Assembly: GCF_019879105.1 (NCBI RefSeq)
Contig: NZ_CP082249.1
Coordinates: forward strand, 1,178,001-1,242,000
DNA: 64,000 nucleotides
Origin: Natrinema sp. SYSU A 869
GTDB taxonomy: Archaea; Halobacteriota; Halobacteria; Halobacteriales; Natrialbaceae
Reading direction: 5' to 3'
A program made the position numbers and the translations under genes. Positions 37,265 through 41,700 of this stretch are shown here, piece by piece. Position 1 is the first letter of the stretch. Every line of letters begins with the position of its first letter. A model generated the notes under the pieces. That model ran no database searches. It was given only the letters and a program-made list of their open reading frames with translations, and was not told where the DNA came from.

Positions 37265-40050
37265 TTAGCTAATGTGAATCGCGGGTTTACCGGGCCGGGC
37301 TTTGGCTGCCTGCTCGTCGTCGCCGGTCGCCCGCCGAACGACGACAGCCACATCGAACTCGTCGGTGACGAGCCAGGACGCACGGTCGAGAATCGAACGC
37401 TCGCGGTCCGCACCAAGCAGGTCCCCACCGTCCCCGCCGTCCTGGCCGACGAGGTCGCCCACGAACGCCGCGACGCGCTCGTGATCGGAGTCGATGGCGA
37501 GCGAATCGTCCGCGAGAACGCGGTCGACGATCGAATCGACGGGATCGGAGCCGTCGTCCGCGACCGCAGTCCGGCTCACCAGTTCGGCGACTCGGTACTT
37601 CCACTCGGCGGCGACGACCAGTTCGATCCGCTCGGGGTCGTCGATATCGGCGACATCGACGATGTCTCGGACGTCCTCGAGCGTGCGATCGACCAGCCGG
37701 CGCTCGAGCTGGTAGGCCGACGCGTCGCGCGTCGGTTCGGGCCAGTCGGCTTCGACGGCGAGCCCCTCGCCGCGGAGTTTGTTCCAACATTCCTCGCCGA
37801 GGTGGGGTGCCATCGGGGCGATCAACGCGGCCAGCGTCAGCAGACCGCGTCGGTAGATCTCGCCGTGCGGGCGGTCGTACTCGCGGTAGCGCCGGAGCAA
37901 GCGCGCAAGTTCCCGGATCTCGGTTGCAGCCCGGTGGAACCGGAATCGTTCGTACTCTTCAGTGACCGCGGCGATCGTCCGGTCGATCTCCCGAGCGACG
38001 TAGTCGTCGTGATCCCGACGCTCGACGCGGGTGTCGCCCTCCTCGACGAAGTCCGCCGCCATCCCGTAGAGGGTCTGCTGGAGGTCGTAGGCCCCGCGAA
38101 CGTTGTTGGCGGTCCACTCGAAGTCCTGTTCGGGGTGAGCCGCCGAGAGCACGAACAGTCGCGTCGTCTCCGCGCCGTACTCCTCGGGACGACGACGTTC
38201 CCCTTTGAACTGGACATCTTCTCACCGTCGTACAGCACCGTCCCCTGACTCATGAGTTCCCGAATCGGCTCTCGCCGCTCGAGGAGGCCAATATCGGCTA
38301 GCGCCTTCGTGAAGAAGCGAGTGTACAGCAGGTGGAGGATGGCGTGCTCGTCGCCGCCGACGTAGAGATCGATCGGCAGCCAGTCGTTCGCGATGTCCGT
38401 ATCAAACGGTGCGTCCGCGAGGTCCGGCGAGAGGAAGCGTAGGTAGTACCACGAGGAGTCGACGAACGTGTCCATCGTGTCCGTCTCGCGACGTGCAGGG
38501 CCGCCGCAGTCCGGACAGGTCGTCTCGTTCCACTCCTCGGCTGCATCCAGCGGGTTGCCCGTCGTCCGGACAAACTCCGGCAGTTCGACGGGGAGGTCCT
38601 CGTCGGGCACGAGGACGTGGCCACAGTCGTCGCAGTGGACGACCGGGATCGGCGTCCCCCAGTAGCGCTGCCGGGAGATCAGCCAGTCCCGGAGCCGGTA
38701 GGTGACGTCGTCTACGAGCGCGTCGTGGTCTGCCACCAACCGTTCGCCGGCCGCCTCGCTCTCGAGGCCGTCGTACTCGCCGCTGTTCTCGAGGACGCCC
38801 TCGCCGGTGTATGCCGAGGTTTCGTCGGTTTTGACGTTGCTACCGCGGTCGTCTGTTTGATCGGCTCCGCCCTCGGGAACGATCACGCGCTCGACCGGCA
38901 GGTCGTGCTCGCGGGCGAAGGCGTGATCGCGCTCGTTGTGGCCGGGGACGCCCATCACGGCACCGGTGCCGACGTCCTCGAGGACGTAGCCGGCGACGTA
39001 GACCGGGAGTTCCTCGCCGGTCAGCGGGTGGATCGCGGTGGCGTCGGTTTCGACACCCGAAAAGCCGACCTCGTCGGGATCCTGCTCGCGGACGGTGTCG
39101 ACGTACTCGGCGACGCTGTCGTCGTCCTCGGCCAGTTCCCGCGCCAGGTCGTGCCCGGGTGAGACGGCGAGATAGGTCGCGCCGTAGATCGTCTCCGGGC
39201 GGGTACTGAACACGTCGACGGTTCGATCACCGTCGTCTCCGTCGCCATCGGTGCCACCGTCAGTGCCGCCGTAAGCGGACACGTCGAATGTGATCCGCGC
39301 TCCTTCCTGCCGACCGATCCAGTTGCGCTGGATCTCGCGGACGCCATCGGGCCAGCCCTCGAGCTCGTCGAGTCCCTCGTGGAGTTCCTCGGCGTAGTCG
39401 GTGATCGTGAAGAACCACTGGTCGAGTTCGCGCCGCCCAACTGGCGTCTCACACCGCCAGCAGACCCGCTCGCCGTCGCTGCTCGCGGCTTCGCCGCTCC
39501 CCTGATCCGAGGACTCACTGTGTTCGTCCTCGCGCTCGACGACCTGTGCGTCGGCCAACACCGTCTCGCAGTCGGGACACCAGTTGACCGTCGCCGCCTC
39601 GTACTCGACGAGCCCCGCATCGTAAAGCCGCTTGAACAGCCACTGATTCCACTGATAGTACTCGGGCTCGCAGGTCGTGATCTCCCGCGACCAGTCGTAG
39701 CCAAAGCCCATCGTCTCGAGTTCCTCGCGCATGCGCCGGATACACGCCTGCGTCCAGGACTCGGGGTCGGTCGCTCGGTCGAAGGCCGCGTTTTCGGCGG
39801 GAAGACCGAAGGCGTCCCACCCCATTGGGTGGAGGACGTCGTCGCCCTGCATGCGACGATAGCGCGAGTAGGCGTCCGTAATCGCGTAGTTTCGGACGTG
39901 CCCCATATGGAGCGTGCCCGACGTGTAGGGAAACATGCCGAGGACGTAGGTCGGATCCGTGGCGTCGGCATCGAGCGCGTAGACGTCGTCGCGCTCCCAG
40001 ACGTACTGCCAAAACTCCTGTACCTGCGCGTGATCGTAATGACTCGTCAT
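37265..40050 (-). CDS. leuS: Leucyl-tRNA synthetase, broken by a one-base frameshift
   Basis: It charges tRNA-Leu with leucine. The first 620 codons, from the ATG at 40050 ([11 protein letters not shown]), hold the HIGH motif as HMGH (residues 48-51), the CP1 editing domain inserted at about 220-430 and zinc-binding cysteine pairs (CPDC, CWRC; later CDDC and CPDC). The KMSKS loop is KMSSS near residue 610. Just after NVVVP the frame is lost; adding one base at the run 38186-38188 gives [19 protein letters not shown] and continues to a stop at 37265, with the anticodon-binding and C-terminal domains. The repaired protein has 928 residues, normal for the family. A true break would be lethal unless another leuS exists, so an assembly error is likely. 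Confidence 0.92.
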
Positions 40051-40245
40051 TGTCGGCGAGGTCCGTTGGCGCTTACTCGGGGTGCCTGCTATATGATTGT
40101 TCGGCCACCCGGCGAAGCGAGGGGTTCGACAACAGCGGACATGTCGTTTTGAACGGCATCGTCGCGGCTCCTCGAGTAGGATTTCGATATGCGGGGGTCG
40201 CTCATATCGAAAGGCCAAAACTGGTTCCGTCGCTTATCAGTGCTG

Positions 40246-40677
40246 ATGGGAGCTTTCGAAACACACAGCGGGCGAGTCCCCGAATCGCACCGCGACATTC
40301 TCGAGAAACAAGCGTTCGGCCACCTTGCGACGAACGATTCAGACGGCCACCCGCACAGCAGTCCTGTCTGGGTCGACCACGACGACGGGGAGGCCGTGCT
40401 GATAAACACGCTCCGCGGCCGCACCAAGGAGCGAAATATTCGAACGAACCCGGAGGTCTCGATTTCGATCGTCGATCCCGACGATCCATACCGCTACGTG
40501 TCCGTTCGCGGCCACGCAACGCTCTCGGAGGACGGGGCCAACGATCACGCCGACGAGTTGGCCCGACAATACCTCGACGTCGAGGAGTACCCCCACCATG
40601 ACGAGGAGGACGAACCGCGCGTCATCGTTCGGATTCCCGCCGAGCACGTCGTCGCCCGCGGACGCGAGTACGAGTAG
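40246..40677 (+). CDS. PPOX-class F420-dependent oxidoreductase (split-barrel flavin/F420-binding family)
   Basis: 143 residues with the pyridoxamine-phosphate-oxidase-like split barrel: FGHLATNDSDGHPHSSPVWVDHD, then VLINTLRGRTKERNIRTNP and YRYVSVRGHATLSEDG. Archaeal members usually bind F420 rather than FMN. The substrate is unknown. The ATG at 40246 is chosen; a GTG six bases earlier is an alternative. It lies between leuS and the leuS relic, on the opposite strand. Confidence 0.85.
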   Translation: MGAFETHSGRVPESHRDILEKQAFGHLATNDSDGHPHSSPVWVDHDDGEAVLINTLRGRTKERNIRTNPEVSISIVDPDDPYRYVSVRGHATLSEDGANDHADELARQYLDVEEYPHHDEEDEPRVIVRIPAEHVVARGREYE

Positions 40678-40780
40678 TGAGACGGCGGGTCGGAACAGTT
40701 CGGCCGGACCGACTGTCGTCCACATCCAACCGTCGGTTCGTCGGCGCAGCCACTCGGCCGTGGCCACACCGGCACCGCCG

Positions 40781-40890
40781 AGACCGGTCGTAGGCGTCGG
40801 TGACCGCGTAGTTTCGGACGTGGCCCGTGTGGAGCGTGCTCGGCGTGTAGGGGACATCTCGAGGACGGAAGCCGGATCTTCGGCGTCCTC
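40781..40890 (-). pseudogene. Relic of a second leuS N-terminus
   Basis: On the minus strand the frame PYTPSTLHTGHVRNYAVTDA matches the neighbouring LeuS segment [20 protein letters not shown] residue for residue over most positions, including the HIGH motif (HTGH). A shifted frame just before it reads DAEDPASVLEM against [14 protein letters not shown] identity with 39867-39970 is obvious (GCGTAGTTTCGGACGTG is shared). No start or downstream part remains. It is a decayed fragment of another leuS or of a tandem duplication. Confidence 0.75.
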
Positions 40891-41013
40891 GTCGGAGTCC
40901 GAATCGAACCGATACTATCGGAAGTGGTCCCATATCAGCCGACGAGTGTCATTTCGTTCCACTGTGTGTTGAGATTAACAAAGCGGGCGGGTCGTCTACG
41001 GTCAATCCGTCGA

Positions 41014-41700
41014 ATGTCCCGCCTTCGAGACGACCTCCCATCGGCGTTCGCGCTGCTTCTCACCATCGTGGCCGTCCTGCTCGCGTTCGGGGCCCTCACG
41101 GTGGTCTTCGCCCCGGACTTGCAGGCGGATGAGACGGATTCGTCCGCCACTGCGGTAGAGAACGACGACGCGTCGACCGCCGAACCGAACGTGACGACTG
41201 ACGAACGCGAGCGCGACAACGCGACCGACACCGAAACTGATACCGACGACTCGTCTCCCGATGATGACGATAGCACTCCGACGGAACCGTCAGCGGGCCC
41301 GGAGCCGTCAACCGATTCCGGACTGTCCGCGGATGACGACCCCGACGAAGACGACGACCCGCCGGACGATTCTGCCCGATCGTCGCCAGACGACGCCGAG
41401 GAACCGGTTGAGCCCACTGAACCAGACGGGCCCGCTGGGCCCGACGAACCCGCTGGATCGGACGAATCCGACGACGCGGGCGACGACTCCGAACTCGATG
41501 AACTGGAACGAACACTCGAGGACGCCGGACTGATCGGCGATGCGGACGACTCGGCAGCGAGCGACCGCGACTCACCGGAAGACGATGAGCGAGAGCCGCC
41601 GGAAGATGTCGAGCCGGGTCCGCCGGATGACATCGAACGAGGGCCGCCAGATGATGTCGAACGAGGACCGCCAGACGATACCGATCCATTCGAGGGCTGA
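41014..41700 (+). CDS. Membrane-anchored, extremely acidic low-complexity protein
   Basis: 228 residues from the ATG at 41014 (MSRLRDDLPSAF). A single hydrophobic segment ALLLTIVAVLLAFGALTVVFA anchors it; the remainder is Asp/Glu/Ser/Pro/Thr-rich and predicted disordered. Near the C-terminus GPPDDIER, GPPDDVER and GPPDDTDP are tandem repeats that are also visible in the DNA. No domain is recognised. The long tail probably faces outside as a charged stalk or spacer. Confidence is limited because compositional bias alone can mimic coding sequence, but the start, anchor and stop make sense together. Confidence 0.65.
   Translation: MSRLRDDLPSAFALLLTIVAVLLAFGALTVVFAPDLQADETDSSATAVENDDASTAEPNVTTDERERDNATDTETDTDDSSPDDDDSTPTEPSAGPEPSTDSGLSADDDPDEDDDPPDDSARSSPDDAEEPVEPTEPDGPAGPDEPAGSDESDDAGDDSELDELERTLEDAGLIGDADDSAASDRDSPEDDEREPPEDVEPGPPDDIERGPPDDVERGPPDDTDPFEG

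Follow-up and report, generated by a model that had tools for sequence, protein, structure and literature searches.

In the 64,000-nucleotide stretch of DNA analysed here (the window), a decayed piece of a second leuS copy lies upstream of the living leuS gene. It is probably a stub left by a duplication of the leuS 5' end that took place when a foreign cassette, composed of a gene for an F420-dependent PPOX-class oxidoreductase and the tail of an LVIVD-repeat gene, recombined between leuS and its upstream neighbour, designated here gene N. Most likely, this stub is a footprint of gene exchange with a related haloarchaeon rather than the remnant of a lost second enzyme. The PPOX gene belongs to the same event as the relic.

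The relic occupies positions 40790–40893 of the minus strand (about 104 bp) and corresponds to leuS nt 79–183 (codons 27–61), including the region of the HIGH motif, which reads HTGH here. With about 35 codons, no start codon, and a 1-base gap relative to leuS, it cannot encode an enzyme. When positions 40690–40990 were compared with the window by BLASTN, segment 40790–40888 matched leuS positions 39868–39966 on the same strand in 81 of 99 bases (81.8%, E 4e-22), and the next-best match after leuS had an E value of 0.05; compared with the leuS protein, the relic matched at 69% over 29 residues (E 1e-6). A query of 40690–41020 against the complete genome, in which 25 of 104 candidates were scored, gave as matches with an E value of 0.001 or lower the region itself, the living leuS (82%), a second LeuRS gene (77%), and one 25-bp hit, with no genes of other HIGH-class synthetases among them. 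The homology of the relic to leuS is beyond chance and, among the candidates scored, better than that to other class I synthetases; neither a fortuitous match nor another HIGH-class synthetase, which the first-pass annotation of this DNA had named as possible alternatives, was seen. The same annotation had described a piece of the leuS HIGH region, oriented as leuS and located 730 bases upstream of its start, with an F420-type oxidoreductase gene on the opposite strand in between. The piece, its orientation and the intervening gene were all borne out, while the limits given for the piece (40781–40890) had to be revised to those above and its distance to 740 bp from the leuS ATG at 40050; a role of the oxidoreductase gene in the event had gone unnoticed.

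The relic region, used as a DNA query against 29 Natrinema genomes with 25 candidates scored per genome, revealed the relic in its own genome only; the matches in other Natrinema were to leuS1, leuS2, the flank, and short pieces. Similarly, no second leuS piece was detected by tblastn (E 0.01) at 80 leuS loci of named genomes, with flanks of up to 6 kb where the contig allowed.

The locus is a mosaic, in which a native upstream flank is followed by the leuS stub, the tail (3' end) of an LVIVD-repeat gene of foreign origin, the PPOX gene, a promoter that turns native, and the living leuS. The flank (40895–41013) is collinear with a stretch of DNA whose end, in relatives devoid of the PPOX gene (e.g., G014 and G011), lies about 98–104 nt upstream of leuS, indicating that this flank and gene N (41014–41700, plus strand) are in their native place. 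Gene N, whose DNA is directly upstream of leuS in the PPOX-less relatives, encodes an acidic protein with an N-terminal hydrophobic stretch and no Pfam match. The gene changes fast. In many Natrinema its DNA can be recognised at this position, and in G084 a gene judged N-like by eye occupies the corresponding place. The relic sits where the leuS start belongs, with about 175 bp (−98 to nt 78) missing. The adjacent segment (40703–40789, minus strand) represents the decayed 3' end of an LVIVD-repeat gene together with the PPOX 3' flank, and aligns with G069 and G068 with local scores of 63 and 53.5, as compared with maxima of 40.5 and 45, respectively, in 500 shuffles each. In G068 an LVIVD-repeat gene (PF08309) follows PPOX in the convergent orientation, and in G069 the corresponding DNA was recognised by alignment. 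The PPOX gene itself (40246–40677, plus strand) matches TIGR03618 with 117.5 bits at a cut-off of 79.05.

On the side of the living gene, the leuS upstream DNA outside about −66 aligns with that of PPOX-bearing genomes (86% over 687 bp in the case of G022), whereas positions −18 to −1 are identical to those of G011. As read from the alignments, the promoter type switches between about −66 and −19, and the putative zone of homologous crossover (40069–40116, minus strand) is PPOX-genome-like outside and G011-like, i.e., native, inside. The far side carries a duplicated and truncated piece, which is leuS nt 79–183 in the window's genome (W) and a leuS promoter piece in G022. No such promoter piece was found in W (P 0.61).

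The distribution of the PPOX gene is patchy. Only 2 out of 29 Natrinema genomes, W and G022, have a close orthologue; all 29 have some PPOX match, but outside these two it does not exceed 52% and is located elsewhere. A family search of 125 genomes revealed further close orthologues (82–89%) in G084 and G080 of genus g37 and in G068 and G069 of genus g33, the next match being at 63%. In all five carriers other than W the gene is divergently adjacent to leuS, while a search of 15 kb near the 63% PPOX gene of G145 found no leuS. The carriers, including W, represent three genera, and when 392 genomes were drawn evenly from the order (E 1e-48 or better), PPOX genes above 70% were confined to these genera. 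Among the 80 leuS loci of named genomes (flanks up to 6 kb where the contig allowed) only two had a PPOX match, at 47–49%. The third-codon identity between W and G022 was 86.6% for PPOX vs 68.8% for leuS, and the respective values were 80.3% vs 68.8% for W and G084, and 76.1% vs 66.8% for W and G080; for W and G068/G069 the values for PPOX (66.9/70.4%) were about equal to those for leuS (66.2/68.1%). PPOX has diverged far less than leuS in the first three pairs, a pattern indicating that PPOX was exchanged horizontally among Natrinema and g37. Additionally, the leuS genes of G084 and Haloterrigena salina share 90% identity, and the H. salina locus (L096) is an empty site: its alignment to the G084 locus (L185) omits a stretch of 569 bp with PPOX, with a 12-bp overlap at the borders.

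A parallel scar is present in G022. Between PPOX and N (about 8013–8193 of L168) this genome carries a decayed second leuS promoter, in the native order after N. The piece scored 56.5 against the promoter of G025 and 30.5 against its own, neither of which was reached by any of 500 dinucleotide shuffles, and its P value was 0.01 or less for 25 of the 32 promoters tested. Of 880 segments of 180 bp from five loci, six reached 30.5. Five of these lay at real leuS promoters; the G022 piece, which straddled a segment border, is not counted among the six. No comparable piece was found in W, G084, G080, and G068 (P 0.58–0.94), and the value for G069 was 0.013. A decayed leuS coding piece beyond PPOX was not found in G022 (P 0.42–0.73), and the similarity of its tail to the LVIVD-repeat gene is weak, being reached by 16 of 500 shuffles.

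The alleles of the relic were analysed over leuS nt 79–183 (104 comparable sites), with G011 leuS as the reference for the native allele. A total of 20 differences were found, of which 12 are shared with leuS genes from outside the W clade (W, G011, G009, G014, and G001) and 8 are private. In 20,000 simulations of decay from the native allele the mean number of such shared foreign alleles was 4.4 (P 5e-5). Of the private substitutions, 7 out of 8 fall at codon positions 1 or 2, as expected under decay. At the nine sites that differ between G068 and G011, the relic has the G068 base in seven and the G011 base in two; the matches at sites where other carriers differ from G011 were 7/9 for G069, 7/12 for G080, 6/11 for G022, and 9/21 for G084. 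The PPOX-less G017, G018, G020, and G028 matched nearly as well (6–7 of 8–11 sites), and thus the alleles are more telling against the W clade than for any particular donor. An ACG codon at nt 91–93, common to the five genomes of the W clade, is absent from the relic. On the basis of these alleles, we favour a non-native stub.

Maximum likelihood placement over 61 branches ranked G068, the G068+G069 branch, and G069 as the top three, with g37 next. Placement with W was 3.7 lnL units worse (AU 0.20), with G001, G009, or G014 3.6–3.7 units worse (AU 0.18–0.34), and with G011 4.1 units worse (AU 0.02); the AU value for the W+G011 stem was 0.03, all values being uncorrected for 61 tests. The placement test thus fails to reject the W clade as a whole. 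These values are for the trimmed relic; if the sites beyond nt 183, which are LVIVD tail, were retained, W was 5.7 units worse (AU 0.075).

The living leuS (37265–40050, minus strand) encodes a bacterial-type LeuRS (TIGR00396). Its reading frame slips once, at about 38190, which we take to lie just after the KMSKS motif. The remaining frame is open, the 295 codons downstream of the slip are conserved, and all five full-length relatives read are intact at this site, so that the slip is either a real lesion or a sequence error. The differences between W and G011 at codon positions 1/2/3 were 15/14/58 in the 294 codons after the slip vs 17/16/108 in the 590 codons before it, as if constraint was relaxed after the slip. 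However, this part is more variable at positions 1 and 2 in 10 of 10 pairs of five intact relatives, and being naturally more variable it gives no sign of old decay. The first-pass annotation linked the relic to an apparently broken living copy, but this link is unproven: nothing ties the slip to the relic, and it lies a long way 3' of the leuS portion represented there. As to the origin of the living gene, the named leuS loci closest to it are those of Natrinema species, and it groups with G011 in a leuS tree read without support values. Among twelve 150-nt segments it was closest to G011, or tied, in eight, including the first two (99 and 95%), while in the segments from 300, 600, 900, and 1200 other Natrinema were 2–4 points above G011. 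Taken together, the tree, the segments, and the G011-like inner promoter suggest that the living leuS was probably not brought in together with PPOX.

An origin of the relic from the second LeuRS gene, or from another class I synthetase, was disfavoured by the quality of the matches. The loss of a second LeuRS, proposed in the first-pass annotation, found no support: W has a second LeuRS gene elsewhere (C3:2465865-2467577, 62% identical) with an uninterrupted frame, and the best matches of the relic are to leuS1. The relic is 76.5% identical to this paralogue vs 77–85% to 27 leuS1 loci of other Natrinema, i.e., a few leuS1 genes are nearly as low as the paralogue. In BLAST, the trimmed relic scored 77–119 bits (median 100) against 32 leuS1 genes and 68.9–88.7 bits (median 79.7) against nine second-LeuRS genes, which overlaps the leuS1 range. 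The top match among these 41 genes was the leuS1 of G069, a genome that also has PPOX beside leuS. Two bacterial-type LeuRS forms do occur in haloarchaea and get transferred (PMC3436685). Nevertheless, since paralogues score lower (at best 88.7 vs 119 bits) and one persists in the genome, and since the G011-like living leuS and inner promoter make its replacement by a leuS incoming with PPOX improbable, we regard it as very improbable that the relic is a remnant of a full-length second LeuRS or of a native leuS whose place was taken entirely by an incoming gene.

If the strain had instead duplicated the 5' end of its own leuS in tandem, the stub would be native and would have decayed in place, and PPOX would have come in by a separate insertion or an illegitimate join. 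This would fit the natural order of the relic and the native flank, as well as the AU value for placement with W. The first-pass suggestion of tandem duplication was correct in that a leuS 5' end is duplicated, but the alleles of the relic speak against a simple copy of the neighbouring gene: the neighbour-derived alleles expected of a recent duplicate were not found, at 12 of the 20 sites where the relic departs from G011 it has a base known from other lineages, and the codon of the W clade at nt 91–93 is missing. We therefore consider this explanation unlikely, though placement with W retained an AU value of 0.20. The arrangement N–stub–PPOX–leuS could also be an old state of the Natrinema ancestor, lost nearly everywhere and kept by vertical descent in G022 and W. 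The position of PPOX between leuS and N in G022, and between leuS and the N-like gene in G084, agrees with this, as does the leuS promoter piece beyond PPOX in G022. On the other hand, 27 of 29 Natrinema genomes, sister G011 included, lack a close PPOX orthologue, and the mismatch of PPOX and leuS similarity in the same pairs would require later exchange regardless, which renders such descent rather improbable. Insertion of a foreign cassette, which we prefer, has points against it as well: an intermediate arrangement was seen in none of the genomes compared, the AU value for placement with W is 0.20, and the nearest relatives differ, being G022 and g37 for PPOX and g33 for the relic.

If the stub is an insertion scar, the order of events and the type of crossover that we infer would be as follows, the donor being presumably an unsampled relative. 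A foreign cassette, carrying PPOX and the tail of its old neighbour, would have recombined into the space between N and leuS, with the leuS promoter and 5' region as the anchor, and this region would thereby have been duplicated. The join might have been a single crossover, the donor being circular or tandem, or it might have been homologous on one side and illegitimate on the other; the product would have been N, promoter, and leuS 5' stub, followed by the LVIVD tail, PPOX, promoter, and leuS. Afterwards, about 175 bp with the stub promoter and start codon (−98 to nt 78) would have been lost, and the remainder would have decayed. A circle-type single crossover would leave donor leuS in the stub, while one-sided illegitimate joining would leave that of the recipient. 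Alternatively, the cassette could have been assembled in another Natrinema lineage and moved into W by ordinary homologous recombination. More tentatively, a small PPOX cassette may repeatedly have entered and left genomes of this haloarchaeal family at the leuS promoter and 5' end, with leuS as the anchor, each entry duplicating the 5' region and later loss leaving stubs. The coding piece in W, the promoter piece in G022, and the clean empty site in the comparison of H. salina with G084 could then be the traces of such traffic.

The relic is ordinary in kind, but its detail is informative. It offers a base-level view of how a non-essential gene may be exchanged between haloarchaeal genera beside an essential one without breaking the latter, and such a scar may be useful for studying the joining of foreign DNA to archaeal chromosomes. 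It also calls for caution, as stubs of this type are easily misread as lost paralogues. In the literature, we found no title on a leuS/PPOX insertion scar.

The locus resembles the products of homology-facilitated illegitimate recombination (HFIR) in having a homologous crossover zone on one side and a duplicated or truncated piece on the other. HFIR-type joining can leave duplications or truncated pieces. In the reports on it, HFIR, by which foreign DNA is joined by homology at one end and without homology at the other, is described in bacteria (PMC3240628, PMC5361080), whereas here it would be deduced from an archaeal scar, for which single-crossover insertion accounts equally well. A similar displacement with remnants is described for the effector/immunity arrays of Vibrio T6SS clusters, where an incoming module uses a conserved upstream part as its anchor and shifts the old gene further back, the remnants staying in order (PMC5361080); the locus in W differs from these in its genes, in its archaeal host, and in having a single cassette and no array. 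Closest in terms of the gene family is the work of Andam et al. (2012), who reported that the bacterial-type forms LeuRS-B' and LeuRS-B'' occur in one haloarchaeal genome, and that their neighbourhoods vary, which was ascribed to non-homologous recombination (PMC3436685). W likewise has two bacterial-type forms and the neighbourhood changes, but that work concerns the transfer of whole genes, while the scar in W consists of a 5' stub only and is tied to the adjoining PPOX gene.
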